A DNA stretch of 61,312 nt from assembly GCA_944320105.1 (NCBI GenBank), contig CALUGA010000011.1:1-61312 (forward strand). Direction: 5' to 3'. The notes beneath the pieces were generated by a model, which was not told where the DNA came from, searched no databases, and saw nothing but the letters and a program-made list of their open reading frames with translations. The first letter of the stretch is position 1. Each line of letters starts with the position of its first letter. The translations under genes were made by a program, and so were the position numbers. This DNA comes from an uncultured Prevotella sp. GTDB taxonomy: Bacteria; Bacteroidota; Bacteroidia; Bacteroidales; Bacteroidaceae. Positions 18,878 to 59,813 of the stretch are shown piece after piece.

Positions 18878-18883
18878 CCGACG

Positions 18884-20923: not shown

Positions 20924-20996
20924 GCCGAGCAGCAGCAACAGGCATTGCAACACTGCAATATTGTAAAATAAATTCTTTCTTTCACACTTTTTACGC

Positions 20997-21106
20997 AACC
21001 ATCTGGCTCTCAACGTTTTACAGAACGACCCAAATGACGTTGCGAAACAGCCCGTTTGAGCCTGCCAAACGGGCTGTTTCGCAACGCAAAAGAGGCCGTT
21101 TGGCGG
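20997..21106. repeat. 22-bp-period intergenic repeat array A (about 4 units)
   Basis: Units of exactly 22 bp at 21019-21040, 21041-21062, 21063-21084 and 21085-21106, with AAAC-type cores at 21045, 21067 and 21089; a weaker unit may lie at 20997-21018. Two units form a perfect 21-bp inverted repeat: CGTTGCGAAACAGCCCGTTT (from 21038) with its complement at 21066-21086, loop of 7. There is no T run, so it is not an obvious terminator. It lies between uvrB and the DUF4468 gene. Family consensus GCSAAACRGGCCGTTTGGC. Confidence 0.85.
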
Positions 21107-21303
21107 GCTAATATCGTCCATAGGGCCTGCGAATATCAACTTTGTCAACATATTATCACATTTGGCAAGCTGCCCTCAGTCCTAGCCGCGACATTGCAAC
21201 ATGGTGCGCCAAACGCCATGCCGCAAGCCGACCAAACGGGCAAGCAGGCAACAAAAACTATGTTAATCTGTGTAATCTGTTCCGAAGATAGTGATATATT
21301 TTG
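21107..21303. other. Remainder of the uvrB-DUF4468 gap
   Basis: No open reading frame of note, no strong hairpin and no further 22-bp unit. Only the promoter at its right end (21304-21311) is recognisable. Confidence 0.5.
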
Positions 21304-31673: not shown

Positions 31674-31709
31674 AATGTTTATCAGCTGTGCAAGACTTCT
31701 GTATTCCAT
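31629..31709 (-). CDS. leu operon leader peptide (26 residues)
   Basis: Reading frame from ATG 31709 to TAG 31629, starting MEYRSLAQLINIILLPHV. Ten of 26 residues are Leu, Ile or Val, with the codon run ATA AAC ATT ATT CTA CTA; CTA is uncommon in the neighbouring genes. It begins about 20 bases after the predicted transcription start and ends 23 bases before the terminator hairpin. It is probably not a functional protein but a sensor of charged Leu- and Ile-tRNA. Confidence 0.75.
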   Translation of the reverse strand: MEYRSLAQLINIILLPHVKGSGESVV

Positions 31710-31733
31710 GTTGCCGTACTTTGTTTCTGGTTG

Positions 31734-31765
31734 CAAAGTTAAGCAAAACGAAGCAAACAAACAAA
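31734..31765 (-). promoter_or_regulatory. leu operon promoter (-33 and -7)
   Basis: TAACTTTG (- strand, 31734-31741) matches TAnnTTTG; TTTG copies at 31758-31761 and 31762-31765 lie 16 and 20 bases upstream of it. Predicted start near 31728, about 20 bases before the leader peptide ATG. Confidence 0.78.
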
Positions 31766-31925
31766 TAATCCGTAACTTTTTTAGTCGTTTTCGTGACATT
31801 TTTCCGCCTTGCATTACGCATTTCAGCCCTTAACATTCTTACTTGCGGCATAGTGGCATAAGCCCAGAGGCATCAAGCAACACAAACCATCACCACCTAA
31901 CTTCCACAAAAACATTGCATTAGAC

Positions 31926-31956
31926 TTTGCCAAACAGATTAAAATGCCTATTTTTG
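31926..31956 (+). promoter_or_regulatory. Promoter upstream of the TlpA-like gene (-33 and -7)
   Basis: TTTG (31926-31929), 19 bases, then TATTTTTG (31949-31956). A full consensus layout on the + strand, 157 bases before the ATG at 32114. The long leader would contain repeat array B. Confidence 0.65.
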
Positions 31957-31960
31957 CATA

Positions 31961-32070
31961 AAGCAAAAACCAAGGCCAAAACGGCATAGCATGGCATTTG
32001 CACCCGCCAAACTGCCCGTTATGGAACGCACTTGCAACAGAAATGCAAATCGCCTGGCAGCCAACAAATT
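31961..32070. repeat. 22-bp-period intergenic repeat array B, degenerate (about 5 units)
   Basis: The best unit is 32005-32026 (CGCCAAACTGCCCGTTATGG), which matches the family consensus well. Neighbouring 22-bp windows 31961-31982, 31983-32004 and 32027-32048 keep GCA and ATTTGC or AATGCAA edges in phase but are otherwise decayed. It is the weakest of the six arrays and lies between the leu promoter and the TlpA-like gene. Confidence 0.5.
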
Positions 32071-32113
32071 GGCAGAATTTGGGTTGTGAGTAACAGATAT
32101 TGACAAAGCAGAC

Positions 32114-33658
32114 ATGAAACCAAACATGAGAACAGCACTTCTTGCAGCGGCACTAATCGCCATGTGCCATGACCAAGCCAACGCCTTTACAGCAAACAGT
32201 TGCACCACAAACAATGCAACGGCAGACGCTACGACAGTGACAAGCGATTTATTCCGCAGCGGCACCGGAGTGCTGCAAGGGCGCGTGGAAGGCGAGCAGC
32301 CCGATGGCATCATCTATTATGGATATAATGGCGTGACCCACGAAAGCAGGCCGAAAGCCTACAGCGTGAATGCAGACGGCACGTTTACCATAACTTTCAA
32401 CCTCGACTACCCCATCCTGGACTACATCATGGTGGGCGACAACGCCATTTACTTCTATGCCAGCCCGGGCGACACTACCCATGTGGCCATCGACAGCACC
32501 GGCCACGCGCGATATTCCGACAGCTCGCGTCACCGCCGCCTGCTCGAACTGCTCACGAACAACGCCCCTAAACTGCGCATAAACAAGAAACAGCTGATAG
32601 CAAAGGCGCAGAAGTCGGACTTTGGGGAGTTCGCCGCGTGGGCTGCAACGCAGGTGGACAGCCTTGCAGAAGCCGCCGACATCATTGCGGCAAGCCAAAG
32701 GCTATCAACGGAAGAAGCAAAACTGCTGCGCACACTCACGCTCGTGGACAACTGCACAGACTGCTACGACTACAAGTACATAAGGAAGTCCAACTTTAAC
32801 ATGGCAACTGCCGACTATGCATTCATGCGCCGCCTGCAACCATACGACCTCAGCTGCCTCATGGTTCCATCGCGACTTTACTTCCTCGTAAACCGATACA
32901 AATACTGCGGTCCTATATTCTGGATGGCTACGCCTGGCAAAAAGGATAGCTACAAAAACGCCACCGACAGCGCGGCCATGGCTGCCGACAGGGCCATCTT
33001 CGGCATAGACAAGCCTTCGCTCTTCCTCCAATTGGCATGGACAGACATTCATTCTTACATGGAAGACTACGAGGAAGAGCCGCAAAAGACATTGGAAAAG
33101 ATGGCACGACGGGCTAAGCTGATTACCGTGCCTTACCTGAGGCAGCTCTTGGAAGAGCAAGCCGCCCTGCTGCAAAAGCCAAAGGCAGCCACTTACGAGC
33201 TGCCGGCAGGAAGCGCAACCGACATATTCAATGCTCTTATTGCCAAACACCGTGGCAAATTCGTGCTCGTTGACTTCTGGAGCACGGGCTGCGGCCCATG
33301 CCGACAATCCATTGAGCGAAGCCACGCCCTGCGCGACTCGCTGGCCAAGGCTGAAGGCTTTGAATTGGTGTTCATTACCAATGAGCGTGAGTCGCCGCTG
33401 AAAGCATACAACGATTACACAACCAAGCACCTTCAAGGCGAAGAGTGCCTACGCATAACCAACGCCGACTACGGGCAGCTGATGGCCTTGTTCGGCTTCA
33501 CCGGCATACCGCACAACGAGCTTGTGACGCCCGACGGCCGCATAGCAACAACCGACATTGACCTGCGGCAGTTCAAGGACATAAAAGCATTCAGGAAATG
33601 GCTTGACAAGATAAAAAACGCTATCGGCACCGAAAAAGCCCAAGGCAAGCAAGACTAA
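32114..33658 (+). CDS. Exported thioredoxin-fold (TlpA-like) protein
   Basis: 514 residues with a signal peptide (about 1-24). A beta-rich N-terminal domain (about 45-130) resembles the DUF4369-type domain found in many Bacteroidota TlpA proteins, a helical middle follows, and a C-terminal thioredoxin domain (about 360-500) carries FVLVDFWSTGCGPCRQSIE with the active-site CGPC near residue 393-396 and the cis-Pro loop FTGIPHNELV. Likely a periplasmic thiol-disulfide oxidoreductase; substrate unknown. It is a single-gene unit ending in a terminator. Confidence 0.85.
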   Translation: MKPNMRTALLAAALIAMCHDQANAFTANSCTTNNATADATTVTSDLFRSGTGVLQGRVEGEQPDGIIYYGYNGVTHESRPKAYSVNADGTFTITFNLDYPILDYIMVGDNAIYFYASPGDTTHVAIDSTGHARYSDSSRHRRLLELLTNNAPKLRINKKQLIAKAQKSDFGEFAAWAATQVDSLAEAADIIAASQRLSTEEAKLLRTLTLVDNCTDCYDYKYIRKSNFNMATADYAFMRRLQPYDLSCLMVPSRLYFLVNRYKYCGPIFWMATPGKKDSYKNATDSAAMAADRAIFGIDKPSLFLQLAWTDIHSYMEDYEEEPQKTLEKMARRAKLITVPYLRQLLEEQAALLQKPKAATYELPAGSATDIFNALIAKHRGKFVLVDFWSTGCGPCRQSIERSHALRDSLAKAEGFELVFITNERESPLKAYNDYTTKHLQGEECLRITNADYGQLMALFGFTGIPHNELVTPDGRIATTDIDLRQFKDIKAFRKWLDKIKNAIGTEKAQGKQD

Positions 33659-33717
33659 CCAAAAAATAAACAAGTTTGAACGGCACATCAAGCACAGCAG
33701 AAAGCACACAGCAAACA

Positions 33718-33753
33718 CAAAGCGGGGCGGCACCAAGATGCCGCCCCGCTTTG
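33718..33753. terminator. Bidirectional terminator between TlpA-like and PpiD-like genes
   Basis: A 15-bp perfect stem CAAAGCGGGGCGGCA (33718-33732) with TGCCGCCCCGCTTTG (33739-33753) between convergent genes. Confidence 0.88.
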
Positions 33754-33772
33754 TCATATCAGCAAACTGCCA

Positions 33773-35914
33773 TCAGAAGAACATATAGCGGTTGTCTACC
33801 ACGTCAGACTTAAGGTAAAGCTCGTTCAGGAAGCGGCTTGCTGCCTGCATGGCCTGCTGCCTGAGCTGCTGCTCCATAACCTTCTCGTCATACTTCGCTC
33901 CTTGACGCTGCTTCTTGTCGATAACCTGCAACATATATGCTCCACCGTTGCCCTTGATGACACGGGGGCAGAATGCGCCCTTCTTGGTTGCGGCCACCGC
34001 ACCGCTAAGGGCAGGCTCGCTTGCGCCCGTGGCCTGCACGAACACAGGAGCGCCGAAAGTAATCTGCCTTACGGTGTCAACACGCGCACCTTTCGACTTG
34101 GCCGACCCAATGTTGTTTGCACCTGCCAACTTGCCTTTGAGCATATCGAACTTCTTGTCGCGCATCACCTCCTGCTTAATCACGTCCTTTACATCCTCCA
34201 TGTCGCGATAGCCCACAGGGTGAACCTTTGTCATGGCCACAACGAGCAGGTGGTCGTTGTTTCCGCACTCATAAAGCGGCGAAACGGCGCCTGCCTCAGC
34301 GTCGAAGATCCACTTCATGGCCTCGCCCGTGGCGCGTATTCCGGCAACATTGTGCTCCGAGTTGAACAGATCCTTGCGCTCACTTACCTTGTAGCCAAAC
34401 TTGGCGGCGTTCTTCTCCATAGCCTCCACGGTCTGGTTTGCGCTGACAAACTGGCTGAACTTGTTGTAAGCGGCAGAGTAAGTGGCCTTTGAGAAGTCGA
34501 TGGTGTGCTTCACAACGGCAGCCACGTACTTGTCTACCATGGCGTTGCGTGCAGTCACCTGCACGATGACGTTGCCTTGGGTAAACGCAATGTTCTTCAT
34601 TTCGTTTACACCGAGCGTGTTGAGGGCTTCAAGGTAGAGCTTTGAATCGGCATCGATGGTCTGCGAATTTTCGTACATTGCCGATGTGAGCCACTGCTTC
34701 TGACCCGTCTGGCTGTACTTCTTGGCTATCGAGTCGAAAGGCGCCCCGGCCTGAAGGGCTGCATACACGCTGTCTGCAGTCTTGCGGGCAGCCTCCACTG
34801 TGGCACCTACAATCTGTATCTGGCGGTACTCAACCGAGTCGGGCAACTGGGTCTTGGAAATCAGCTTGACCACGTTGAGCGTGTTGTCAGCCTTCGTCTC
34901 AAAGGGTGCAGTGGTCTGGCCAACAGCCATTGAGTCTATCTTGGTAGCTATGTCGCGTGAAAATGCGTTGCGGGTAACGGGAATCCCGAGGTAAGCCTCC
35001 TGCGACTGAGCCTTGCGAACCACCACAGCCGGGTCGGTTCCCTCCTGCAATTGCTTCTGGGCATCGGCCATCGTAGCCTGTATGGCCTTGCGGTCGGCTG
35101 CAGAAGGAAGCACCTGGAATTCAACATACTTTATGTCGCGGCTCTCCACGTACTGCTTGTACATCTCTTTCTGCTCGTCGTACTTGGCCTTGATGTCGGC
35201 ATCGCTGACTTTCACGTCGTTATCGTTCACCGTGGAATAAGCGATGGAAGCCAACTGGATGTCGCTTTCCTCAGCCTGCGCATCGAAAGCCATCTTGGCT
35301 GAGACAGGGTTTGACAAGAGGCAACCGGCCAACAAGTTCTGGTACTTCATGGCAAGAATCTGCTGGCGGAGCGACTTCTCTATGAACTGCCAATACTTGT
35401 AGATGGTGCGGTACTGCTCGGCCATCTGGGCGTCCTGCCCGTTCTCCACCTTCTTATAATCATCAAGGAACTTGGTCAGCATCGAAGCATCAAAGCGCCT
35501 GGTCTGCTGGTTTACGAACGGGGTTTGCAACAGAATGGGGTTTGTTCCGGCGCGGAGCACGTTCTGAAGCTCCTCCTTCGTTACCGTGAGGCCCAACTTG
35601 TCGGCCTCAGCCTCAACGATGGTGTTGTTTACGTAAGTGTTCCACACCTGGTCTTTCACCTGGTTCAGCTCATCTTCGGTGAGATTGTCGCGTCCTTGGG
35701 TCATCTTTATGACCTCTTGGTACTCATCAATCAGGTTCTGGAAATCCTGCACAGAGAGTTTCTTGCCTAACACCTCGCCTACCTGAAGACGCCGCTCATT
35801 GCTTGTTGCCTCGCACGAACGGAACATCTCTTCGGCGATAAACGCAAAGAGGCCGAGACCGATGATCACGATCAAGATGACGCCTCTTTTTCTGATTGTT
35901 CCTAATGCTGCCAT
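33773..35914 (-). CDS. ppiD: Membrane-anchored peptidyl-prolyl isomerase / foldase (PpiD-like, SurA_N domain)
   Basis: 713 residues: short cytoplasmic N terminus, one membrane anchor (GVILIVIIGLGLFAFIAEEMF, about 11-31), a SurA/trigger-factor-like N-terminal chaperone region (about 40-240), and parvulin-type rotamase segments in the middle (about 240-480). Predicted to sit on the periplasmic face of the inner membrane and assist folding of exported proteins. C-terminal portion (YRDMEDVKDVIKQEVMRDKKFDMLKGKL) is typical of the family. It has its own promoter, 91 bases upstream. Confidence 0.88.
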   Translation of the reverse strand: MAALGTIRKRGVILIVIIGLGLFAFIAEEMFRSCEATSNERRLQVGEVLGKKLSVQDFQNLIDEYQEVIKMTQGRDNLTEDELNQVKDQVWNTYVNNTIVEAEADKLGLTVTKEELQNVLRAGTNPILLQTPFVNQQTRRFDASMLTKFLDDYKKVENGQDAQMAEQYRTIYKYWQFIEKSLRQQILAMKYQNLLAGCLLSNPVSAKMAFDAQAEESDIQLASIAYSTVNDNDVKVSDADIKAKYDEQKEMYKQYVESRDIKYVEFQVLPSAADRKAIQATMADAQKQLQEGTDPAVVVRKAQSQEAYLGIPVTRNAFSRDIATKIDSMAVGQTTAPFETKADNTLNVVKLISKTQLPDSVEYRQIQIVGATVEAARKTADSVYAALQAGAPFDSIAKKYSQTGQKQWLTSAMYENSQTIDADSKLYLEALNTLGVNEMKNIAFTQGNVIVQVTARNAMVDKYVAAVVKHTIDFSKATYSAAYNKFSQFVSANQTVEAMEKNAAKFGYKVSERKDLFNSEHNVAGIRATGEAMKWIFDAEAGAVSPLYECGNNDHLLVVAMTKVHPVGYRDMEDVKDVIKQEVMRDKKFDMLKGKLAGANNIGSAKSKGARVDTVRQITFGAPVFVQATGASEPALSGAVAATKKGAFCPRVIKGNGGAYMLQVIDKKQRQGAKYDEKVMEQQLRQQAMQAASRFLNELYLKSDVVDNRYMFF

Positions 35915-36331
35915 TACTTTTTTACTATTGTTTTTTGTTTTATGTTTCTTTCTTTATCCTAACCGGCAACAGGCCGACAGACCGCCCGCCGCCACTTTAG
36001 TGGGCAAAATTACTAAATTTATGCCAATTGACAACATATTTTGTGGAAAAAATACTCACAACCGCCTTTTATTGACCACTTTGAGAGCTACTGGCCAAGA
36101 TGCCGCAGTCGCCTATAATGAACAATGGCCAACACTTGCATGGAATGGAAAACACTCGCAGGATATTCACTTTGACAAATGGAACGGAAAGCGAAACAAG
36201 GCCACGGATAATGCCCAACGCAATGGTCGCAGCACATAAGGCACCCCGCCTAATGCCCTTCGTTTGTAAGAAATATTCAATTTCACCGACGGTTTTGGCA
36301 CCAAGGCATAACACCCTGAGGCACAACATGA
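35915..36331. other. Left part of the lptC-ppiD gap
   Basis: Apart from the ppiD promoter (36005-36012), I find no convincing gene. A 96-codon open frame on the - strand (36069-36359) runs through it, but it has no promoter, no family and no typical codon pattern. In other Bacteroidota I recall a CorC/HlyC-type CBS protein gene between lptC and the ppiD-like gene; no trace of it is seen here. Confidence 0.45.
36005..36012 (-). promoter_or_regulatory. PpiD-like gene promoter, -7 element
   Basis: TAATTTTG on the - strand, a TAnnTTTG match, with a GTTG at about the right distance (36032-36035) as a partial -33. Leader of about 85 bases to the ATG at 35914. Confidence 0.65.
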
Positions 36332-36463
36332 TACAAAAGCAACTAAACCACGTTGCCAAACAGGCCGAACCACAGCCTCAAACAGGCCGTTTGGGAATGC
36401 GAAACAGGCCATATGGCAACGCAAAATGGCGCGCACGGCAATACCATACGCGCCATTGTAAAC
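36332..36463. repeat. 22-bp-period intergenic repeat array C (about 6 units)
   Basis: Consecutive 22-bp windows from 36332 to 36463. Cores AAACAGGCCG or AAACAGGCCA start at 36358, 36380 and 36402, exactly 22 bases apart and in the same orientation. The next units (36420-36441, 36442-36463) form an inverted repeat AATGGCGCG/CGCGCCATT. The right edge GCGCCATTGTAAACA (36450-36464) is the complement, with one mismatch, of the left edge of array D. It lies between the end of lptC and the PpiD-like gene. Confidence 0.85.
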
Positions 36464-36584
36464 AAAAGTTACCACAGAAATACATCACAGTTTGCGGCAA
36501 GCAGAGCTTGTTCGAACACCTTGCGCCTAACCCTCCACACAGGACACGCCCCGTCAAAAAGTGGCGTACACATGGCCTCGCAAA

Positions 36585-37247
36585 TCATCTTGCGCGCGAA
36601 GTGGCGGCACGAGGCGTGGCCGCCGGGCGCAACGGCGGTGGCGCAACGGCACTGTCGGCTGCGGCAGACGAATCGGCCGGTGCGGACTGCCCGCCCTCCA
36701 TGTCGGACTTGACAAACGAACCTTGAGAATTGGAAACGGTATAGTGGGTCATGTGTTCGTCGCTGCGGAAGTATGTTCCCTCCAGAGTGCGCTCCGGAGT
36801 AATGAGAGTCGAGAACTTGTTTGAATACATCTCGTGGGTTATTCCATCCCAGAACAACTCCTCGCTGCGGAATATCAAGCCCTTGACATTACGCACGCGG
36901 ACACGCCCCCGAAGCTCCCAAAGTTTCATCTTGTCATAATACCACGCTGTGTCGGCCTGTATGTAAGCCTCAACATGGAACTTCTCGTCGAACTGTTCGA
37001 GGAATATGCCCTTGATAAACGTCCAACGCGAGGGTTGCCTTACTTGGTTCACGTCCCAGCGTTCGGTGACTATCCGATACTTGATGACGCCCGAATCAGA
37101 CACCAAAGTGTTGACCCCATAGCTCACCATGACCGAAACAGAATCGCGGTCGTGGATGGCCGGAGCCGGGTGTTCCTTTTCCTCGGAGCACGAAACCACC
37201 GCAGACGCTGCCAACACAAGAGACAGCCCCACGGCAAAAAGCCTCAT
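36585..37247 (-). CDS. lptC: LPS export ABC transporter periplasmic protein LptC
   Basis: Bitopic periplasmic protein that accepts LPS from LptB2FG and passes it to LptA. 220 residues from MRLFAVGLSLVLAASAVVSC, which reads as a lipoprotein-type signal in this phylum; an ATG at 37274 adds nine residues. The body has the LptC pattern of repeated strands (RWDVNQVRQPSRWTFIKGIFLEQFD, AYIQADTAWYYDKMKLWELRGRVRVRNVKG, EMYSNKFSTLITPERTLEG). The last 35 residues are a Pro/Ala/Ser/Arg-rich low-complexity tail not expected in LptC. Next to the beta-barrel gene upstream. Confidence 0.88.
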   Translation of the reverse strand: MRLFAVGLSLVLAASAVVSCSEEKEHPAPAIHDRDSVSVMVSYGVNTLVSDSGVIKYRIVTERWDVNQVRQPSRWTFIKGIFLEQFDEKFHVEAYIQADTAWYYDKMKLWELRGRVRVRNVKGLIFRSEELFWDGITHEMYSNKFSTLITPERTLEGTYFRSDEHMTHYTVSNSQGSFVKSDMEGGQSAPADSSAAADSAVAPPPLRPAATPRAATSRAR

Positions 37248-37288
37248 GGCAACACTTTTACCTGACGACAACACTTTCCTGCAAATGT

Positions 37289-38575
37289 TTACTCAACCTT
37301 CCACTTCATGAACCAGCGTTCGTTGAAGGTGATGCCTATGTTGATGCGGAACGTATTCTCGGTGATGAAGTTCTTCGAATCTGAGCGCACCCACTGCCCG
37401 CTTATGTTAAGGAAAGAGCGGTTGTTGTATCCATTGACGATTGGAATGCCGAAGCCGGCACTAACGCTGTATTCCTTGGGGCCGTCCTGCCCTTGTATCT
37501 TTACGTAAGGCGTGGCATACGAAGCACCGACGCGATAACGTATGCGGCGGAAGAAATTCTGGCTCAGCTCGTCGGTGACCCATTCGCCACCAACAGTCAC
37601 CTTGTGGCGATCGGAGAGCAAGCCGCTTTTCAGTACGTAGTCGCCTGTGGCGGCATCAGTCTCTGGTATGTCTACGTCACCCCACTGCTGGAGTGCATAG
37701 TCGAGACCCACAGTAAGCTGGTTGGCGTGCCGCCATGCCAGGCCAACGCCGTAAGACATAGGTATGGCAAGGCCGTCGGCAACAGTGAGCGTGCTTGACG
37801 ATGACACACCCGTCTGGCTGTTTGACGATGTAGTTGTCACTTCCGGATCGGCACCGAGCTTGTGGCCAATGCCCACAGTTGCCCCTAAGGTAAGCCTGTC
37901 CTGCTTGGTAAGCGGCTGTTCCCACTGAAGACCGAAGTCAACCTTATAGCTGTTGACCGTTGCACTGTATGTCCTCTGCATTGTGTTCACGTAGCTGTCA
38001 CTGCTGGAAATGGATATCTGGCGGTCGTAAGAACCCCACAAGTAAGAGATGTTGGCACCGACCGACAAGCCCGCAAACACATTCCAGCCCACGCCGACGA
38101 ATGCCTGGTGGATGCCGCCAGACCCGGAATGAGCCTCGGCTGTAGTTGTCTCTGATGTTCCCACGCGCGAACTTGACGAATAAGCATATCCTATATTAGT
38201 GAAAGGGATAAGCCCGACGCTTAGTCCGACCTTAGGCAACACACGGAAAGCAGCCACGGCATACTCAAAGTCGGCGTTCTTGGCGTTGCGGCTGACGCCG
38301 CCCTCCTTGAAGTTGGTAAACTGCCCCGACAGACCAGCATCAAATATCATGGTCAGCGAGTCGATGGCCGAATAAGAGGCTGGGTTAAGCACATTGACCT
38401 GATTGCCGTACCGAAGGCCAAGTGACAAGCCGTTCATACCCCTGTTGAAGCCCTGTGCCTGCTCCGAAAGGATGCCCAAGCCATACTGGCTGTATGGGGA
38501 GTTTGTTCCACTCTGCGCCACTGCCGACATGGTTGTCAGGCCCAACGCAAGACTACATACTATTGCTCTTTTCAT
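37289..38575 (-). CDS. Outer-membrane beta-barrel protein, FadL/OmpP1-like
   Basis: 428 residues with a signal peptide (MKRAIVCSLALGLTTMSAVAQ) and a regular pattern of alternating amphipathic strands to the end. The start of the mature protein, TNSPYSQYGLGILSEQAQGFNRGMNGLSLGLRYGNQVNVLNPASYSA, broken over its first strands, is typical of Bacteroidota proteins related to the OmpP1/FadL hydrophobic-compound transporters; substrate unknown. It is upstream of lptC with a gap of 41 bases to the chosen lptC start. Confidence 0.8.
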   Translation of the reverse strand: MKRAIVCSLALGLTTMSAVAQSGTNSPYSQYGLGILSEQAQGFNRGMNGLSLGLRYGNQVNVLNPASYSAIDSLTMIFDAGLSGQFTNFKEGGVSRNAKNADFEYAVAAFRVLPKVGLSVGLIPFTNIGYAYSSSSRVGTSETTTAEAHSGSGGIHQAFVGVGWNVFAGLSVGANISYLWGSYDRQISISSSDSYVNTMQRTYSATVNSYKVDFGLQWEQPLTKQDRLTLGATVGIGHKLGADPEVTTTSSNSQTGVSSSSTLTVADGLAIPMSYGVGLAWRHANQLTVGLDYALQQWGDVDIPETDAATGDYVLKSGLLSDRHKVTVGGEWVTDELSQNFFRRIRYRVGASYATPYVKIQGQDGPKEYSVSAGFGIPIVNGYNNRSFLNISGQWVRSDSKNFITENTFRINIGITFNERWFMKWKVE

Positions 38576-38990
38576 CGAAAGTTATATCTTCATTATGGAG
38601 AAAGAAGCGGTTCACGCCTTCAGGCATGATCATATCGCCTGCAAAGTTGCACTTTTTTTCCGGGATATGCAAATCGTAACGCTTTCTTCCCGTTAAATAA
38701 ACAAAAAGCCATGCGGATTTTAAGATATCATCGCGAAAGTCACAATCAGGTGCATCAACGCTGACAGCGCGACAACACAAGGATTCACCGGCCGCACCGA
38801 AAAAAGCAGACACCCCCGCACAACGACCACTCGCATTGGCCGACATGACTGCGGCCGCGCTGCCGTAAGGCACAGGGAACGTGCTGGGGTTGCCTATATT
38901 TGCCAATTGGTACATCTGTCTGTCTTTTCGCTATGCGCCTGCAAAATTATTGAAAAAAATCGGAATAATGGCACGGCGAATGGAAAAAAG
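38576..38990. other. Intergenic region between the beta-barrel gene and lnb
   Basis: Holds a - strand TAATTTTG (38942-38949) followed 27 bases later by an ATG (38915) that opens a 120-codon frame running to 38553 and overlapping the first 23 bases of the beta-barrel gene. The predicted product resembles nothing I know and its codon use is mixed, so I do not call it as a gene. The frame may simply be the leader of the beta-barrel gene transcript. A + strand TATATTTG is at 38895-38902. Confidence 0.45.
38942..38949 (-). promoter_or_regulatory. Possible promoter for the beta-barrel/lptC transcript, -7 element
   Basis: TAATTTTG on the - strand, a TAnnTTTG match, is the only good candidate upstream of the beta-barrel gene. 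It would give a leader of about 360 bases. No clear -33 is seen. Confidence 0.45.
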
Positions 38991-38994
38991 AGAG

Positions 38995-39002
38995 TAATTT
39001 TG
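38995..39002 (+). promoter_or_regulatory. lnb promoter, -7 element abutting the GTG start
   Basis: TAATTTTG ends four bases before the GTG at 39007, so transcription would start at or next to the start codon. Confidence 0.65.
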
Positions 39003-39006
39003 CAGC

Positions 39007-40215
39007 GTGAAACAGCCAGCAGACATATTGAAACCTCTCATGGCAATCGCCGTGACCATCATGTTGGGCGTTATGGCACCGCTCGCGAGCCGGGCACAAG
39101 GCCGCGCGGCGGACTCCGTGGAGGTCAGCCTGCTGACGTGCGCCCCCGGCAACGAAATATACAGCCTTTACGGACACACTGCCCTGCGCTACCACGACCT
39201 GCGCACAGGCGGCGACTGGACGTTCAACTACGGCGTGTTCAACTTCAACAGGCCTTTTTTCGTGCTGCGTTTCGTATTCGGCCTTACCGACTACGAGCTG
39301 GGCATCATGCCCTATGCGGCATTCCGCGAGGAGTACCGCAGGAACGGCCGGTGGGTGGTTGAACAAGTGATAAACCTCACCCCAGAGGAGAAAGCGAAGA
39401 TCTATTACGCGCTGGCCGAAAACTACCGACCCGAAAACAGGACGTACAGGTACAATTATTTTTACGATAACTGCACCACGAGGGCGCGCGACATGATAGA
39501 GATGTGCATCGGCGGGACCGTTGAATATGCCGCAGCTGATGACACACCCCAGCCTACTTACAGGCAGATGATACACGAGAAGACCAAAGGCTACCCGTGG
39601 GCCGAGTTCGGCGATGACCTCTGCATTGGCGCAAAAGCCGACATTGAGGCCGACGACAGGCAGCAACAATTTCTGCCAGAAAACCTCATGCGCGCTTTCA
39701 GCGAGGCTACAATAACCGACGGCAACGGCAAGCGGCCACTCGTAAAGGAAACCCGTCTCACCGTGGATGCATCGCTCCCGGCAACCGAAGGAGGTTTTCC
39801 GCTTACCCCGCGCCAATGCGCGTACATATTATTATTGTTGTCGGTGGCAATCGCCGTGGTAGAGGCAAGGCGGAGAAAGACTTTCATGGCGTGGGACATT
39901 GCGCTGTTCACGTGTACAAGCGTGGCAGGCATAGTGGTCACAGCCTTGCTTTTTTCCGAGCACCCAACAACGAGCACAAACCTCCAGGCACTTGTGCTCA
40001 ATCCCCTGCCACTGTTCTTCCTGCCATCGATCGCAAAGAGGAAACCGACATTTTGGCGCATCTTCGCCGTTCTGGCAACATTGTTCCTCATAGGCGCAAT
40101 GTTCCAAGACTACGCCGACGGGATGGTGATTGTGGCACTATGTTTGCTGATAAGGTGTGCAGCAAACCTTGCGCCAGCATGTAAACAACACAAACAAAGA
40201 ACAGACAAAGCATGA
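39007..40215 (+). CDS. lnb: Lipoprotein N-acyltransferase Lnb-type protein (DUF4105)
   Basis: Family recently assigned to N-acylation of lipoproteins in Bacteroidota, which lack Lnt. 402 residues: GTG start followed by a signal/anchor segment (about 9-29), a periplasmic cysteine-protease-like domain (about 35-240) with YSLYGHTALR and YNYFYDNCTTRARD, whose His and Cys are the presumed catalytic residues, and a C-terminal membrane domain with about five segments (about 272-390). No ATG with a basic N-region lies nearby, which supports the GTG start. Overlaps the next gene by four bases. Confidence 0.85.
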   Translation: MKQPADILKPLMAIAVTIMLGVMAPLASRAQGRAADSVEVSLLTCAPGNEIYSLYGHTALRYHDLRTGGDWTFNYGVFNFNRPFFVLRFVFGLTDYELGIMPYAAFREEYRRNGRWVVEQVINLTPEEKAKIYYALAENYRPENRTYRYNYFYDNCTTRARDMIEMCIGGTVEYAAADDTPQPTYRQMIHEKTKGYPWAEFGDDLCIGAKADIEADDRQQQFLPENLMRAFSEATITDGNGKRPLVKETRLTVDASLPATEGGFPLTPRQCAYILLLLSVAIAVVEARRRKTFMAWDIALFTCTSVAGIVVTALLFSEHPTTSTNLQALVLNPLPLFFLPSIAKRKPTFWRIFAVLATLFLIGAMFQDYADGMVIVALCLLIRCAANLAPACKQHKQRTDKA

Positions 40216-41786
40216 AATACAGGTACATTTCGCTGACGCTGCTCGCGGCATTCTCCGCAACAGGGGGAAAGGCCGACGTGCCGCAGGCCGTACAGTCGGC
40301 TCCCAAGTTGGTGGTGAACATCGCCATCGACCAGCTGCGGACGGACTACCTCGAAGCCTTCGCCCCACTCTACGGCACAGAAGGCTTCCGACTCCTGCTG
40401 ACAAAAGGCAAGGTTTATGAAAATGCTTCCTACCCTTTCTCGCCCATCGACCGGGCTTCGGCCATTGCCGCAATAGCCTCCGGAACGACTCCCTATTACA
40501 ACAGTATAGTGGGGACGCAATGGCTCGACAAAGAGACACTGCGCCCGGTGTTCTGCGTGGACGACAGCAAGTATGGCGGATATCTCACGCAAGACTGCTC
40601 GTCGCCCAAGAACTTGCTGACTTCAACGATAGGCGACGAGCTGAAAGTGGCCACCGGCGGCGCAGCCATAGTCTACGCTGTAGCCCCTTTCCGCGACGCA
40701 GCCGTACTCTCAGCCGGCCATGCCGCCGACGGCGCGCTGTGGATTGACGACGACAACGGCTACTGGTGCTCGTCTAACTATTACTTCAAGAGCAACCCGT
40801 CGTGGATACAGGCATTCAACAACCTGCACGCCGGCGACATAGAGGAAAGCCAGTGGACACCGGCAAACCAGCTTTCGGGAAACTTCAGCTATTTCATGGG
40901 AGGCGGCGCACAGAAACCGTTCAAGCATACGTTCGACAGCGACAGGCGTTACCGTGAGTTCAAGGCGAGCGGCCTCGTCAACGCCAGCGTCACCGACATG
41001 GCACTTCAGTGCGTGGCCACGAACGCCATGGGAACGGACAACGTGACCGACCTGCTCAACATAACATACTATGCCGGCAACTTCGACCACAAGGCAGTGA
41101 CCGAGTGCCAGATGGAAATACAAGACACATACGTGCGGCTCGACAGGGAGATAGCCCGGCTCGTGAAAGAGCTTGAGCGCAAGGTCGGCGCGCAGCACGT
41201 GCTCTTCGTTATCACCAGCACTGGCTATTACGACGAAGAAAACGCCGACTACGCCAAGTACAACATACCCACCGGCACATACTACGTGAACCGCACGGCC
41301 AACCTGCTCAATATGTACTTCGGGGCGTTGTGGGGTCCGGCGCAGTATGTGGAGACGTGCTTCGGCACACAGATATTCCTCGACCACAAGCAGCTGGAGC
41401 AGAAGCGCATCAACGTTTCAAAGGCCACGGAGCGCGCCCAGGAGTTCCTCACGCAGATATCGGGCGTGCGCAACGTCTACACCTCGCAGCAATTGCTGTC
41501 GAGCGGCAACCAGCACATATACAAGATACGCAACGGATACAACCCCGAACGCAACGGAGACATCCTCATCGAGGTGGCACCGGGGTGGCAGGTGCTTAAC
41601 GAAACCAACCTTAAGAGCCACCTGTCACGCGCTTCGTTCACACAATTCCCTATAATAATCTACGGTGCCGGCACTAAGGCCGAACGACTGCCAGACCACG
41701 TAACCACCGACCGTATTGCCCCGACGATATCGAAGGCCATACGCATACGCGCTCCGAACGCCTGCTCGGCGGAGCCTCTTTTCTGA
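40212..41786 (+). CDS. Alkaline phosphatase superfamily protein, probably inactive
   Basis: 524 residues with a signal peptide (about 1-21). The overall fold follows PafA-like alkaline phosphatases: NIAIDQLRTDYLEAF at the first metal Asp, the SGTTP region after the nucleophile, the LDREIARLV helix and RIAPTISKAI near the end. But the usual metal ligands are missing: the TADHG motif reads ITSTGYYDE, the D-x-x-x-H motif reads YYAGN, and the late THVP reads TQFP. Only the first Asp seems kept. It overlaps lnb by four bases, so the two proteins are probably made together; a non-catalytic binding role in the periplasm is an inference. Confidence 0.8.
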   Translation: MKYRYISLTLLAAFSATGGKADVPQAVQSAPKLVVNIAIDQLRTDYLEAFAPLYGTEGFRLLLTKGKVYENASYPFSPIDRASAIAAIASGTTPYYNSIVGTQWLDKETLRPVFCVDDSKYGGYLTQDCSSPKNLLTSTIGDELKVATGGAAIVYAVAPFRDAAVLSAGHAADGALWIDDDNGYWCSSNYYFKSNPSWIQAFNNLHAGDIEESQWTPANQLSGNFSYFMGGGAQKPFKHTFDSDRRYREFKASGLVNASVTDMALQCVATNAMGTDNVTDLLNITYYAGNFDHKAVTECQMEIQDTYVRLDREIARLVKELERKVGAQHVLFVITSTGYYDEENADYAKYNIPTGTYYVNRTANLLNMYFGALWGPAQYVETCFGTQIFLDHKQLEQKRINVSKATERAQEFLTQISGVRNVYTSQQLLSSGNQHIYKIRNGYNPERNGDILIEVAPGWQVLNETNLKSHLSRASFTQFPIIIYGAGTKAERLPDHVTTDRIAPTISKAIRIRAPNACSAEPLF

Positions 41787-41894
41787 CATCATGGCGCATT
41801 GTGGCCGTCAATGTGAGTCGCCCGGAAACACGGCAACGGACAAGCCTCACAGCCACAAGCCATAGGCGGGCAACTTCCATAGACTTGAATTTTG
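41787..41894. other. Gap between the phosphatase-like gene and repeat array D
   Basis: No gene, promoter or clear terminator is visible in these bases. Confidence 0.4.
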
Positions 41895-42026
41895 TTTACA
41901 ACGGCGCAAGCCATTACGCAATGGCGGCCTTACGGCTTTGCAAAACAGGCCATTTGGCGCGGCGAAACGGCTCGTTCGACAATGCGAAACGGCCTATCTT
42001 GCAAGGCAAAAACGGCGCTATTGGAA
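41895..42026. repeat. 22-bp-period intergenic repeat array D (6 units)
   Basis: The clearest array: six consecutive 22-bp units at 41895, 41917, 41939, 41961, 41983 and 42005. The cores AAACAGGCCA (41943), AAACGGCTCG (41965) and AAACGGCCTA (41987) are exactly in phase, and the sixth (42010) is shifted by one base. Units begin with TGCRA or GGCRA and often end in GCAA or GCGC. The left edge TGTTTACAACGGCGC (41893-41907) is shared, in inverted orientation, with array C. It lies between the phosphatase-like gene and secA. Confidence 0.88.
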
Positions 42027-42241
42027 AACCGCTGAGTCACAACGACTTACAGAGATAGCCCAAAGGAAAGGAAAAGATGTTCCACAACACGAAAAACTTT
42101 TACAACAAACAGAATCCCATGCAAATGGCATTGCTGCTTGTGAAAGTTTCCGGCAAAAAGAGAAACGCCCTGAAATGAGGCAAACAACCATGCGAGAAAC
42201 AATTTAAACGGCTCACTGCAAGCATTTAACGAAAAAAGATG
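42027..42241. other. Region between array D and the secA promoter
   Basis: A purine-rich stretch (about 42055-42200) without convincing open frame, hairpin or repeat. Confidence 0.4.
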
Positions 42242-42249
42242 TAAATTTG
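42242..42249 (+). promoter_or_regulatory. secA promoter, -7 element
   Basis: TAAATTTG, a TAnnTTTG match, 50 bases before the secA ATG at 42299. The leader in between is very A-rich. Confidence 0.7.
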
Positions 42250-42298
42250 CAGACGATTGACGCCAAATTACAAACTGAAAATAAAAAAACAACATAAA

Positions 42299-45200
42299 AT
42301 GAACTTCAACAAATTTTTAAAGTCGCTGTTCGGTGACAAGTCAAGCAGAGACATGAAGCTGATCCAGCCAATCGTGGAAAAAGTCAAGGCTGTATACCCG
42401 GAGGTGGAGAAGCTTAGCAACGACTCGCTGCGTGCGCGCACCCAGCAGATAAGGCAGGAAGTGCAGGGCGCAGCCCAAAGCCAGAAAGACCAGATTGCCG
42501 AGCTTAAGGCAAAAATCGAGGACACTCCGATAGACGAGCGAGAGGAAATCTTCAACAAGATAGACAAGCTCGAAAAGGAGATACTCGACATCTACGAGCA
42601 GAAACTCAACGAGGTGCTGCCCGAGGTGTTTGCCATCGTAAAGGAAACGGCACGCCGCTTCGCACAAAACGAGGAGACCATAGTGACCGCAACCGACTTC
42701 GACCGCGAGCTGGCCGCCGACCCGCGCAAGGACTTCATCACCATCGAAGGCGACCAAGCCGTATACCACAACCACTGGACGGCAGGTGGCAACGACCTCA
42801 AGTGGGAGATGGTGCATTACGACGTGCAGCTCTTCGGAGGCGTTGTGCTACACCAAGGCAAGATAGCAGAGATGGCCACCGGCGAGGGAAAGACGCTTGT
42901 GGCAACGCTCCCTGTGTTCCTCAACGCCCTGACGGGCAACGGCGTACACGTGGTTACGGTGAACGACTACCTGGCAAAGCGCGACTCCGAGTGGATGGGG
43001 CCGCTCTACGAGTTCCACGGTCTGTCGGTAGACTGCATAGACAAGCATCAGCCCAACTCGCCAGAAAGGCGCAAGGCATACCAGGCCGACATCACCTTCG
43101 GAACCAACAACGAGTTCGGCTTCGACTACTTGCGCGACAACATGGCCCTCTCGCCTGCCGACCTCGTGCAGCGGGCGCACAACTATGCAATCGTCGATGA
43201 GGTGGACTCAGTGCTCATCGACGACGCCAGGACGCCTCTCATCATCTCCGGCCCTGTGCCTAAAGGCGACGTGCAGATGTTCGAAGAGTACCAACCGCTT
43301 GTGGAAAGGATCGTCGACGTGCAGCGCAAGCTTGCCACCCAGTATCTCGCCGATGCCAAGCAAAAGATAAGCGAGGGCCGCGCCAAGAACGACCAGAAGC
43401 TCCTTGACGAGGGTTTCCTATCGCTCTACCGCTCGCACAAGGCCCTGCCAAAGAACAAACCGCTCATAAAGTATCTCTCGGAGGAAGGAATCAAGGCCGG
43501 AATGCTGAAGACCGAGGAGATATACATGGAGAACAACAACCGCCGTATGCCCGAGGCCGTCGAGCCACTATACTTCGTGGTTGATGAGAAATTGAACTCA
43601 TGCGACCTCACCGACAAGGGTACTGACTGGCTGGCAGGCCAGGTGAACGACGCCACACTGTTCGTGCTGCCCGACATAACATCGCAGCTCTCTGAACTGG
43701 AGACCGAGACTTACCTCACCGACCAGGAGAGGCTCGACAAGAAAGACGAGCTGCTCAACCACTACGCAGTGCAGAGCGAGCGCGTGCATACGCTGCAGCA
43801 GCTGCTCAAGGCATACACCATGTTCAACAAGGACGATGAGTATGTGGTAATCGACGGAGAAGTAAAGATTGTAGACGAGCAGACGGGCCGCATCATGGAA
43901 GGCCGCCGCTGGAGTGACGGACTGCACCAGGCGATAGAGGCCAAGGAGCACGTCAAGGTAGAGGCAGCCACGCAGACGTTCGCCACCATAACGCTTCAGA
44001 ACTACTTCCGCATGTACCACAAGCTGTCGGGAATGACGGGTACGGCTTCAACCGAGTCGGGAGAGTTCTGGGACATCTACAAGCTCGACGTGGTGGAGAT
44101 ACCTACCAACCGCCCCGTTATCCGCAAGGACATGGACGACCGCGTGTACAAGACCGCACGAGAGAAGTACAATGCTGTGATAGATGAGATCGTGAAGATG
44201 CGCAACAGCGGGCGCCCGTGCCTCGTGGGCACCACATCCGTGGAGATATCGGAGCTGCTTTCTAAGATGCTCGACATGCGCAAGATACCCCATCAGGTGC
44301 TCAACGCCAAGCTCCACCAAAAGGAAGCCGACATCGTGGCGCAGGCCGGACAGAGCACAAACGGCCTCGGTGCCGTGACCATAGCCACCAACATGGCCGG
44401 CCGAGGCACCGACATCAAGCTCTCACCTGAGGTGAAGGCCGCCGGCGGATTGGCCATCATAGGTACCGAGAGGCACGAGAGCCGCCGTGTTGACCGCCAG
44501 CTCCGAGGCCGCGCAGGCCGCCAAGGCGACCCTGGCTCGTCGGTGTTCTTCGTCTCGCTCGAAGACAAGCTCATGCGCCTCTTCGGCTCGGAACGCATCA
44601 TCGCCAAGGTGATGGACATGGCTGGATTCAAGGAGGGCGACATGATAGACAGCCCCATGATATCGCGCAGCATCGAGCGCGCGCAGAAGAAAGTGGAGGA
44701 AAATAACTTCGGCATACGCAAGCGCCTGCTCGAATACGACGACGTGATGAACAAGCAGCGCACCGTGGTCTACGAGAAGCGCCGCCACGCATTGATGGGC
44801 GAACGCATAGGCATGGACATCTCGAACATCATCTGGGACCGCGTGGTAAGCATCATCGAGCAGAACGACTACGAGGGATGCAAGGAAGAATTCCTTAAAG
44901 TCCTGGCCATGGAGGTGCCTTTCGGCGACCGCCAGTTCGCCAACGAGAAACACGAGGACCTTGCCGAAAGCGCATTCCAGGTGGCCATGGCCGACTTCAA
45001 GCGCAAGACGGAACGCATACAGGCAGTGGCCTGGCCTATAGTCAAGCAGGTCTACGAGACTCAAGGAACGATGTACGAGCGCATCATGGTGCCTATCACC
45101 GACGGACGCAGGATATACAACATACCTTGCGACCTCAGGGAAGCCTACGAGTCGGAGTGCAAGAGTGTGGTGAAGCAATTTGAGAAAGTGATACTCCTCC

Positions 45201-45643
45201 ACATCATAGACGACTGCTGGAAGGAGAACCTCCGCGAGCTTGACGAGCTGAAGCACAGTGTGCAGAACGCATCCTACGAGCAGAAAGACCCGCTGCTCAT
45301 CTTCAAGCTCGAAAGCGTCAAGCTCTTCGACAACATGGTGAACACCATGAACAACCGCATCACCAGCATATTGATGCGTGGCGCAATACCTGAGATGCAG
45401 CAGTCTGTGCAGGAGGCAGCTCCGGAGGCACAGCAACCCAAACCGCGATACACAGAATCGAAGCGCGACCTCAACGAGGAGCAGCTAACCGACCCCAACC
45501 AGGCTGCAGCTGCCGCCCATGACACAAGGGAACGCCAACAGCACACCCCAATCGTCAAGGACAAGCTGCCGGGCCGCAACGACCCATGCCCTTGCGGCAG
45601 CGGCAAGAAGTTTAAGAACTGCCACGGGCGCGGCCTCGTTTAA
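42299..45643 (+). CDS. secA: Preprotein translocase subunit SecA
   Basis: ATPase motor of the Sec translocon. 1114 residues from [12 protein letters not shown]; an in-frame ATG 14 codons upstream is unlikely, since it is close behind the promoter and the family begins at MNFN. Motifs: [23 protein letters not shown] (Walker A), [29 protein letters not shown] (Walker B), [15 protein letters not shown]-type motif V ([13 protein letters not shown]), and [12 protein letters not shown] (motif VI). The C terminus has the zinc-binding SEC-C motif [14 protein letters not shown], used for SecB/lipid contact. The linker before it (about 1035-1085) is Gln/Ala-rich. Length is normal for the phylum. Confidence 0.98.
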
Positions 45644-50189: not shown

Positions 50190-51737
50190 ATGGCAGAACA
50201 AGACAACACCAAACCACGCCGCCCACGCAAGGCCGCGCCTGTCGACAACGCCTACGGCCATCTTCAGCCCCAGGCGCTCGACGTGGAGAAAGCCGTGCTC
50301 GGCGCGCTCATGATAGACAAGGATGCATACGCAGTGGTGTGCGAGATACTGCGCGCCGAGAGCTTCTACGAGCCACGCAACCAGAAAGTGTACGCCGCAG
50401 TGCAGAGCCTGGGCATGGCCGAACGGCCCATCGACGTGCTCACCGTGACCGAACAGTTGGCCAAGAACGGCGACCTCGACGATGTGGGCGGCCCGGTCTA
50501 CGTGGCCGAGCTAAGCTCGCGCGTGGCCTCGTCGGCCAACATAGAGTACCACGCGCGCATCATCGCGCAAAAGTTCCTTGCGCGCCAGCTGATATCATAC
50601 GCCAGCATGATAGAGACCAAGGCTTTCGACGACACCACCGACATCGACGACCTCATGCAGGAGGCCGAAGGGTCGCTATTCGAGCTGTCGCAGCGCAACA
50701 TGAAGAAGGACTACACGCAGATAGACCCTGTGATAAAGAACGCCGTGGACGTGATACAGAAAGCCGCCGCAAACAAGGACGGCATCACCGGCGTGCCAAC
50801 AGGCTACCACAAGCTCGACGACATCACCAGCGGATGGCAGGCCAGCGACCTCGTCATCATCGCAGGCCGACCGGCCATGGGCAAGACCTCGTTCGCCCTC
50901 TCAATGGCCAAGAACATAGCCGCCGACTACAAGGTGCCAATGGCTTTCTTCTCGCTCGAAATGAGCAACGTGCAGCTCGTAAACCGCCTCATATCAAACT
51001 GCTGCGAAATCCAGGGCAAGAAGATACAGAACGGACAGCTGCAGCCCGATGAATGGGAAAGGCTGGACAAGCGCATGAACAACCTGCTCGGCGCGCCCCT
51101 CTACGTAGACGACACGCCGGGCCTCTCGGTCTTCGAACTGCGCACCAAGGCGCGGCGGCTAGTGCGCGAGCACGGCGTGAAACTGATAATGATTGACTAC
51201 CTGCAGCTGATGAACGCCAACGGAATGCGCTTCAGCAGCCGACAGGAGGAAGTGTCAACCATCTCGCGCTCGCTGAAGGGCCTCGCCAAGGAGCTTGACG
51301 TACCGATTCTTGCGCTCTCGCAGCTCAACCGCAGCGTGGAGTCGCGCGAGGGCCTGGATGGCAAGCGGCCACAGCTGAGCGACCTGCGCGAATCGGGAGC
51401 CATAGAGCAGGATGCCGACATGGTGCTCTTCGTACACCGACCGGAATACTACCACATCTATGAAGACGAAAACAAGCGCGACTTGCGCGGCATGGCGCAA
51501 ATCATAATAGCCAAGCACCGTAAAGGCGCAACGGGCGACGTGCTGCTCACCTTCCGCGGCGAATATACACGCTTTGAGAATCCCGAGGACTCGCGCCTTA
51601 GCGCAGCGCAGGCACAGACCGGCGGCGAGATAGTTGGCTCACGCATCAACGGCGACATGGGGGGAATGCCAAACCTTCCAAACGACTACGACCCCTTCGG
51701 CGGCCCACTGCCTCCCGATGAAGGCCCGGCTTTCTGA
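50190..51737 (+). CDS. dnaB: Replicative DNA helicase DnaB
   Basis: Hexameric helicase that unwinds DNA at the replication fork. 515 residues: N-terminal DnaB domain (about 25-130, [23 protein letters not shown] at its start), linker, and a RecA-like C-terminal domain with Walker [17 protein letters not shown] near 228, [15 protein letters not shown], Walker [22 protein letters not shown] and the arginine-finger region [13 protein letters not shown]. No intein or other insertion. The last 50 residues are Pro/Gly-rich. Confidence 0.97.
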
Positions 51738-51790: not shown

Positions 51791-51897
51791 GGTTTGCCAC
51801 GGCGCGAGACATCGCAGCAGACTGATTTTGTAAATATTTGCACAAAAGAGTATCTATTGCAGCAATGAACACGCAACCGTCTGACAATGAAGCACTT

Positions 51898-52029
51898 GCC
51901 AACGAGGCACAAATTGCATTGCAAAACGTACCGTTTCGGGCCGCCAAACGGTACGTTTTGCAAGCTCTAACAGGCCGTTCGGCAAGCCCAAAAGGCAGGT
52001 ATGGCACCTGAGGAAGTACAATGTAAACA
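51898..52029. repeat. 22-bp-period intergenic repeat array E (about 6 units)
   Basis: Units of 22 bp at 51898 (weak), 51920, 51942, 51964, 51986 and 52008. The second and third form a perfect 18-bp inverted repeat, TTGCAAAACGTACCGTTT (51919-51936) with its complement at 51946-51963, loop of 9. The centre of the stem (CGTACCG) differs from the usual CAGGCCG in both arms together. The right edge ends in TGTAAACA, as array C does. It lies between the dnaB terminator and the RNase Z-like gene. Confidence 0.85.
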
Positions 52030-59630: not shown

Positions 59631-59762
59631 ATTTACACGCAACCACCCACCAGGCACCACGCCCCATTTTGCGCCGCAATACAGGCCGTTTCGCGCTCCA
59701 AAACGCACTGTTTCGCAAAGCCAAACGGCCTGTATTGCGACGCGAAACGACAGCCATCCATA
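59631..59762. repeat. 22-bp-period intergenic repeat array F (6 units)
   Basis: Units of 22 bp at 59631, 59653, 59675, 59697, 59719 and 59741, ending at 59762. CGCAATACAGGCCGTTT (59675-59691) has a perfect 17-bp complement at 59723-59739, so units three and five can form a stem around unit four. The left edge TATTTACAC (from 59630) resembles TGTTTACAA of arrays C and D. It lies between trmN6 and mnmE. Confidence 0.85.
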
Positions 59763-59813
59763 TCTATCTATAAACCAAACACTTACGCAAACACGTTTGA
59801 GCAGCATAAGATC

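Follow-up and report, generated by a model that had tools for sequence, protein, structure and literature searches.

An uncultured Prevotella genome (G000; a 47-contig draft of 2.27 Mb, 77.8% complete) carries on its contig 11 a stretch of 61,312 nucleotides, hereafter the window, in which an initial annotation reported six dispersed intergenic arrays (A to F) of degenerate, quasi-palindromic units spaced exactly 22 bp apart. No coding frame, RNA, or recognized repeat family explained them. This raises the questions of whether the arrays are real, whether they belong together, how far beyond this genome they extend, and what process could have shaped them. The window arrays represent a single element, dispersed and mostly intergenic.

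Six arrays and the anatomy of one element

Four palindromic units were scored at periods of 16 to 30 across the whole window, with 100 order-1 Markov windows as the null. Period 22 gave the best score (59), other periods reached at most 43, and the null at period 22 had a maximum of 42 and a mean of 39.4. Arrays A, C, D, E, and F (scores of 55 to 59; Table 1) exceed the null maximum and are therefore considered real, and their unit starts lie precisely 22 bp apart, as annotated. The remaining array, B (score of 37), is not above chance on its own. The orthologous place of B in a related genome (G156) scores 48, with other periods (20–24) at 41 or less, and the box described below is visible there by eye. 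Since this score is above chance, B is probably a decayed copy. Tandem Repeats Finder detected none of these arrays.

Table 1. Arrays, units, and an end motif in the window (positions are those of the window; scores are for period 22).
Feature	Position	Strand	Description
Array A	20995..21126	-	Six dyads at 22 bp; score 59
Array A units	U0 21105-21126, U1 21083-21104, U2 21061-21082, U3 21039-21060, U4 21017-21038, box 20995-21016	-	
Array B	31961..32070		Very degenerate; single recognizable unit near 32006; score 37
Array C	36308..36439	-	Six dyads, from U0 (36418-36439) to box (36308-36329); score 56
Array D	41918..42049	+	Six dyads; score 57
Array D units	U0 41918-41939, U1 41940-41961, U2 41962-41983, U3 41984-42005, U4 42006-42027, box 42028-42049	+	
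TTTACAA end motif left of D	41895..41901	+	Also present left of U0 in many G000 elements
Array E	51873..52008	-	Strong units 51921, 51943, 51965, 51987; weaker 51899; score 55
Array F	59654..59785	+	Six dyads, box weak; score 59
Array F units	U0 59654-59675, U1 59676-59697, U2 59698-59719, U3 59720-59741, U4 59742-59763, box 59764-59785	+	

The element comprises six dyads at 22-bp intervals: a weak U0, four strong units (U1–U4), and a sixth dyad formed by a CTGAnnnTCAG-GTTGC box (CTGAnnnTCAGnnnGTTGC). U0 through the box measures 132 bp, so that the annotated span of 132 bp corresponds to six dyads of 22 bp. Each unit consists of a constant stem (such as GCAAAA/TTTTGC) around a 7-nt centre, and the centres are species-specific. 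G000 copies have, in order, an end motif (TTTACAA in many cases), ~15 nt of spacing, U0, U1–U4, the box, ~20 nt, and a second TTTACA. This layout was followed, as judged by eye, in 23 of 25 aligned G000 copies; the other two (L018 and L028) are partial, and some copies are without one end motif. The same layout with other centres was identified at 20 loci each of G108 and G017, 12 loci of G077, and 8 loci of G125, and in a mixed-species alignment. The box as a distinct sixth dyad, the end motifs, the pairwise complementarity of centres, and the position near gene 3′ ends are features beyond those of the initial annotation.

A second end type was also observed, with TTGCAAATATGCAACTnAAAAACG ~64 bp before U1 and GTTAACATAAAAATGTTAAC ~133 bp after U1, in G000, G125, and other Prevotella records. 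Its two motifs (TTGCAAATATGCAACT / GTTAACATAAAAATGTTAAC) occur at set distances at one G000 locus (L010) and three G125 loci (L143, L144, and L146) and are common to distant Prevotella species.

Array A lies ~70 bp beyond the stop of uvrB (18875-20923, plus strand) and array E lies 3′ of dnaB (50190-51737, plus). Array D is flanked by an alkaline-phosphatase-like gene (40212-41786, plus) and secA (42257-45643, plus; both from NCBIfam), and array F by a TrmN-like gene (58897-59592, plus) and mnmE (59814-61253, plus). A profile of the whole element (R1) was built from 27 G000 sequences, four of which were window arrays (A, C, D, and F). It matched A at 20996-21144 minus (87.6 bits), C at 36309-36455 minus (78.8 bits), D at 41905-42048 plus (78.6 bits), and F at 59643-59784 plus (74.7 bits), each being a match of the profile to one of its own source sequences. 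The two orientations of C score nearly equally (104.1 and 100.4), and D has a second end motif, TTTTACAA, near 42098-42105. Array E, which has a box-like CCGTCTGACAATG within 51873-51894, is absent from the best 150 of 865 candidates in the G000 profile search. The arrays show no coding role, and the sole Rfam match in the window is a partial tRNA at 1-72, which agrees with the annotated absence of a coding frame or known RNA. Membership in an Rfam family was rejected, with no array above a gathering cut-off.

Distribution in Prevotella and relation to described repeats

The core AAACRGSCCGTTTGG, allowing at most one mismatch, has 129 forward and 152 reverse matches in the G000 genome versus 0 + 0 for the reversed control. 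This genome-wide enrichment, along with the period-22 scores, upholds the annotated view that the quasi-palindromic units form one real family. R1 was scored on the best 150 of 865 candidates in G000, where 16 rows overlap another, leaving at least ~134 separate places. Among relatives, the G000 core was detected in 2 of 59 other genomes, with one match each and no surrounding array, which suggested a species-specific burst. That interpretation was overturned by genus-wide profile matches. R1 matches 60 of 150 Prevotella genomes (G000 included; E of 0.001), in which the unit centres differ, and this G000-derived profile finds the G108 element at an E of 1.9e-15 and the G017 element at an E of 7.3e-16. 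A mixed-species profile of 25 sequences (R2; E of 1e-5) identified the element in at least 58 of 150 sampled Prevotella genomes and at least 36 of the 69 good-quality ones, figures that are lower bounds given strict filters and the scoring of the best 22 candidates per genome. In a sample of 247 genomes from the order, which represent 174 genera including that of G000, the sole R2 match was G000 itself, leaving the other 246 without a match.

A pattern scan of named contigs returned, among the matches listed, the cultured rumen species P. lacticifex and many Prevotella MAGs, as well as Marseilla massiliensis, P. disiens, P. sp. oral taxon 376, and unrelated bacteria. Among the 16 loci inspected, P. 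lacticifex and two of three Marseilla loci show units and box, and those of P. disiens and oral taxon 376 have units of 22 bp but no clear box within the stretch inspected. Matches in Chitinophagaceae, Chloroflexi, Chryseobacterium, Clostridia, and others resemble ordinary terminator hairpins and were set aside.

Screening of 320 kb of a two-contig genome (G108) revealed 32 elements at a mean spacing of 9.3 kb (18 plus and 14 minus), the lowest scoring 154 and the best reversed-sequence control −167. All 32 copies lie in gaps once arrays are masked before ORF calling. The element of this genome is 192 bp long, with abrupt limits of conservation at TTTTGTAAAG (left) and ATTTACA (right). No match to the G108-type element was found in phage records, and none to the G000-type element in plasmids. 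Two IMG/VR contigs from one source (L392 and L393) carry an exact G108-type U2–U3 and may be prophage or host sequence.

These features invite comparison with PINSR, a 188-bp intergenic non-coding repeat described by Naito et al. (2015; PMC4755523), who counted 177 copies in one P. intermedia strain and 184 in another. It was detected by PCR only in P. intermedia, P. nigrescens, P. falsenii, and P. disiens and was published as specific to the P. intermedia/nigrescens group, which comprises dental species; approximately three quarters of its copies are position-conserved between strains, and one copy lies downstream of tnaA (PMC4755523). The G108 element is likewise intergenic, high in copy number, and of similar length (192 versus 188 bp). 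It too has a copy past tnaA, at 1074-1265 of locus L364, just beyond the tnaA stop (tnaA 1492-2868, minus), and its type is present in P. nigrescens (NZ_CP082843.1) at 13 places, the best with 80.1% identity over 99% of the element and a profile score of 280. No array was found at the G017 tnaA locus (L365), which begins near the contig start. Unlike what is described for PINSR, where the portions of the text consulted give no internal period (22 bp or other), dyads, or box, the wider family is organized into such units, and it spans at least 58 of 150 Prevotella genomes with other unit centres whereas PINSR was assigned to one clade.

We take the G108/P. nigrescens type to be PINSR, as matched by its described features rather than by the published consensus. 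Compared in the same way, by description, the element very probably represents PINSR in its genus-wide form. Because the wider family spans the genus, the window arrays are filed as relatives of PINSR and not as PINSR itself. The annotated lack of a described repeat class for the units thus holds only in part, in that a related type fits the published features of one. No further paper on PINSR was found among the matches listed, and, as far as found, earlier knowledge of the family was limited to its value as a clade marker, with no internal structure described. New here are the dyad anatomy, the breadth across the genus, the species-specific and often complementary centres and their en bloc switching, the 3′-end position, and, for one species pair, the enrichment at breakpoints.

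Two other systems were compared. BrickBuilt of Porphyromonas gingivalis has a 23-nt tandem direct repeat between a leader and a tail, with 19 copies, repeat numbers of 1 to 22.8, and predicted stem-loops (PMC4596501). Both are intergenic elements of Bacteroidales with tandem units and predicted stem-loops, but the element described here has four strong palindromic units, often complementary centres, and at least ~134 copies. Identity with BrickBuilt was rejected, as the element has a period of 22 only and four strong units rather than 23-nt repeats of variable number. REP/BIME sequences are high-copy extragenic palindromes in a regular arrangement, often near gene 3′ ends, and the element resembles them in each of these respects. 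It differs from REP/BIME elements (PMC2817692) in sequence and spacing. A search for Y1 (RAYT-type) transposases (PF01797) in ten array-rich genomes found none in six (G108, G017, G125, G156, G082, and G102) and one each in G000, G077, G004, and G089, and a REPIN/RAYT system was rejected given the missing resident Y1 transposase in those six.

Complementary centres, constraint, and turnover

The 7-nt centres within one element are often reverse-complementary. When centres were shuffled among the elements of one genome, complementarity exceeded the shuffled expectation in three of four genomes tested. U1 and U3 of G108 are complementary in 39 of 49 elements versus 32.0 when shuffled (p = 0.001), whereas U1–U2 complementarity is rarer than shuffled (7/49 versus 12.6); U1 with U2 or U3 together shows no excess (46/49 versus 44.5, p = 0.18). 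The corresponding values in G017 are 28/45 versus 20.9 for U1–U3 (p = 0.025) and 40/45 versus 33.6 for U1 with U2 or U3 (p = 0.0018), with U1–U2 alone not significant (22/45, p = 0.10). G077 is complementary at U1–U2 in 6 of 12 elements (p = 0.011) and at U3–U4 in 8 of 12 (p = 0.0003), and G125 shows no excess (4/8 versus 3.9). A multi-genome set, comprising 19 of 22 loci offered from 18 genomes (G077 again and two Marseilla loci among them), had a complementary pair at 12 of 19 loci versus 2.7, with an excess at U1–U2, U3–U4, U2–U4, and U1–U4, where the shuffle across genomes is a weaker control.

One G108 element has a predicted fold of −60.7 kcal/mol (z of −4.7) with U1 paired to U3, and window array D has a fold z of −2.9. 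RNAalifold of 27 G000 elements gave nearly no consensus structure (−2.1 kcal/mol), on which basis a conserved RNA structure across G000 copies was rejected. The single spacer pair examined for covariation showed none (p = 1.0).

Comparison of eight orthologous array pairs from the sister species G017 and G108 revealed differences at 12 of 384 stem sites (3.1%), 18 of 96 spacer sites, and 37 of 224 centre sites, the last occurring as blocks. U0 differed at 31 of 176 sites, the two ends at 30/208 and 40/216, and the box at 73/216. Centres switched en bloc with flanks unchanged in five of the eight pairs (read by eye); three of these switches keep and two break complementarity. Stem constraint was absent from four G000/G156 pairs (stems 37/192, centres 20/112); apart from the window, the loci compared there were chosen for holding arrays, such that presence in 4 of 4 is uninformative on absence.

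Stems that retain their letters, and not merely their complementarity, are what would be expected of a double-stranded protein platform, in which a dimeric or nucleoid protein would occupy the constant half-sites (such as TTTTGCnnnGCAAAA) on one helix face at intervals of two turns. In this reading the box would provide an IHF-like site, and the whole would serve chromosome organization. The exact 22-bp spacing, which extends to U0 and the box and thus outside the paired centres, is consistent with such a platform. WATCARNNNNTTR, which we take to be the IHF consensus, occurs in the box region of 18 of 32 G108 copies and 7 of 30 G017 copies versus 18 of 3000 random 45-mers, and at neither element end in any of 32 copies; we treat this IHF-like consensus as a lead only. 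A protein site, however, predicts no reverse-complementary centres within an element, and we consider the platform an unlikely primary explanation.

All six window arrays are matched at the same place in G156, whose alignable blocks share 76 to 83% identity with the window. At period 22 the six G156 intervals have scores of 46 to 50, and no score above 41 occurs in that contig at periods 20, 21, 23, or 24. One more period-22 array (score of 48) lies near 8505 of G156 contig C35, outside the part that aligns with the window. At the secA locus, 13 of 17 relatives (plus-strand loci) share the upstream gene, as judged by eye; among these 13, G156 has a degenerate array, G158 a different 22-bp tandem array, and 11 no array. 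The retention in G156 together with the differences at secA suggests that copies are gained and lost, though not quickly. The comparison of orthologous gaps proposed with the initial annotation therefore reveals both conservation, of all six arrays in G156, and gain or loss among relatives. The G158 array (L176) is a direct tandem array of CAAAAGCATCCTTTGGCCTTGT-like units between the alkaline-phosphatase-like gene and secA.

Presence and absence at orthologous places and sharp boundaries at unrelated sites could also reflect a non-autonomous MITE, with the dyads as internal transposase-binding sites and a transposase acting in trans to spread copies. Two G017 arrays (L112 and L127) lie inside longer inserts with CGTGAGTTCGG ends, a short AACAAT repeat is present at the L112 joint, and 5 of 32 G108 copies adjoin such a CGTGAGTTCGG-type end motif; these TIR-like ends are confined to the longer forms. 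On the other hand, no target duplication signal was found over the 32 G108 copies, the Y1 transposase is missing from six of the ten array-rich genomes and single in four, and the six window arrays all have period-22 counterparts in place in G156. PINSR was itself judged not to be a MITE for want of terminal inverted repeats (PMC4755523, section 3.4). We regard mobility of this kind as having a small probability, similar to that of the protein platform.

The degenerate window copies, the turnover at secA, the scarcity of elements in divergent gaps (see below), and the absent stem constraint in G000/G156 would fit passive junk tolerated away from promoters. The stem constraint in G017/G108, the fixed number of units, and the complementary centres argue against junk, which appears somewhat less probable still.

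Gene 3′ ends, rearrangement breakpoints, and a proposed mechanism

Positions relative to genes were counted in G108 and G017 with arrays masked and simple ORF calls. Convergent gaps (78) hold 24 elements versus 7 in as many divergent gaps (p = 0.001), and 31 elements lie in 360 tandem gaps, where 28 of 31 are nearer the stop of the upstream gene. The same counts were made for 300 kb of the second replicon of P. nigrescens, using the gene table of the record. Of 12 elements there, all 6 in tandem gaps are nearer the stop and one lies inside a short CDS; no convergent excess was found (2 convergent, 3 divergent). This 568-kb replicon (NZ_CP082843.1), whose first 300 kb hold these 12 arrays, is catalogued as a plasmid and carries rpsA, ileS, proS, and ftsK.

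The bias towards 3′ ends and convergent gaps, along with the strong fold, may suggest an RNA-level 3′-UTR element that acts as a bidirectional terminator or an exonuclease block. Within window positions 31000-43000, which include B, C, and D, 25 terminator-like sites were identified versus 15.9 expected by chance, and only one of them (36338-36357, 6 pairs, in C) lies inside an array. Intrinsic terminators were rejected on this count. No T run was seen after the units, and 7 of 62 G108 and G017 copies lie in divergent gaps, which further argue against an RNA-level role; we consider it improbable, to about the same degree as passive junk.

Arrays are also associated with rearrangement. The stretches compared, 361 kb from G017 and 320 kb from G108, yielded 28 collinear junctions and 19 breakpoints, with 82.6 to 94.0% identity in the listed blocks >600 bp. 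An array lies in or beside the junction at 9 of 19 G017 breakpoints (shift null mean of 3.1, maximum of 8 in 5000), and 17 of 38 G108 breakpoint ends are near an array (null of 3.0, p = 0.0014). Since G017 is a 90-contig draft, some of these repeat-associated breakpoints may be misassemblies; inversions between two P. intermedia strains, some of which lie between PINSR copies (PMC4755523, section 3.5), support their reality.

Three arrays unite the flanks of two different G108 arrays. These, and the swaps of whole cores with unchanged flanks (at L095, L101, and L121, and in G017/G108 pairs), could indicate site-specific recombination arrays, in which arm-core-arm units would have their 7-nt cores exchanged by a recombinase. 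As far as is readable, however, the crossover points in the three flank-joining arrays are not at one fixed place, and template switching would account for the swaps. Site-specific recombination is the least probable of the readings considered here, and we think it very unlikely.

Our preferred reading, to which we assign about an even chance, treats this genus-wide form of PINSR as a REP/BIME-like series of palindromes that adopts hairpins, has its sequence rewritten by internal pairing, and undergoes recombination between copies. A chain of palindromes beside gene 3′ ends would fold at two levels of pairing. At the first, each unit would form a hairpin with a constant stem and a 7-nt centre. 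At the second, whole units would pair, either in the combination U1–U2 plus U3–U4 or as U1–U3. Such pairing of units may either be selected, or template switching may rewrite a unit from its partner; the latter would yield both the en bloc switches of centres and centres that are species-specific. Mutual recombination would keep copies homogenized and leave inversions and deletions behind. Folding in cells, template switching, a role at 3′ ends or in DNA topology, and a protein that reads the stems are each putative.

A more far-reaching version is improbable in our estimation, to a degree comparable with the RNA-level role. It proposes a self-correcting, genus-wide DNA folding device, in which paired centres would be matched cassettes that are exchanged in blocks and are species-specific, the stems would remain constant, a putative dedicated protein or recombinase would read the cassettes, and the arrays would govern large-scale rearrangement.

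By our estimate, the family accounts for approximately 1 to 2% of the sequence in two Prevotella genomes, based on ~134 copies in 2.27 Mb of one and 32 in 320 kb of the other, at 192 bp each. The six-dyad anatomy, the complementary centres, and the link to rearrangement make it a testable system. They raise the questions of what reads the stems, whether the hairpins exist in cells, and which process, template switching or selection, maintains the pairing of centres. They also bear on why gene order differs so much among Prevotella genomes.

The G017/G108 alignment also revealed clean insertions of ~196 bp in G017 at C85 16518-16720 and at C92 61307-61503, 123643-123839, and 140950-141143. These four inserts, with ends like AACCCCAATCGGTCATTAG, represent another MITE-like family. 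A 126-bp insert at G017 C85 38947-39073 has CGTGAGTTCGGCATAAG inverted ends, and the same ends flank some of the longer array-bearing inserts (L112 and L127).
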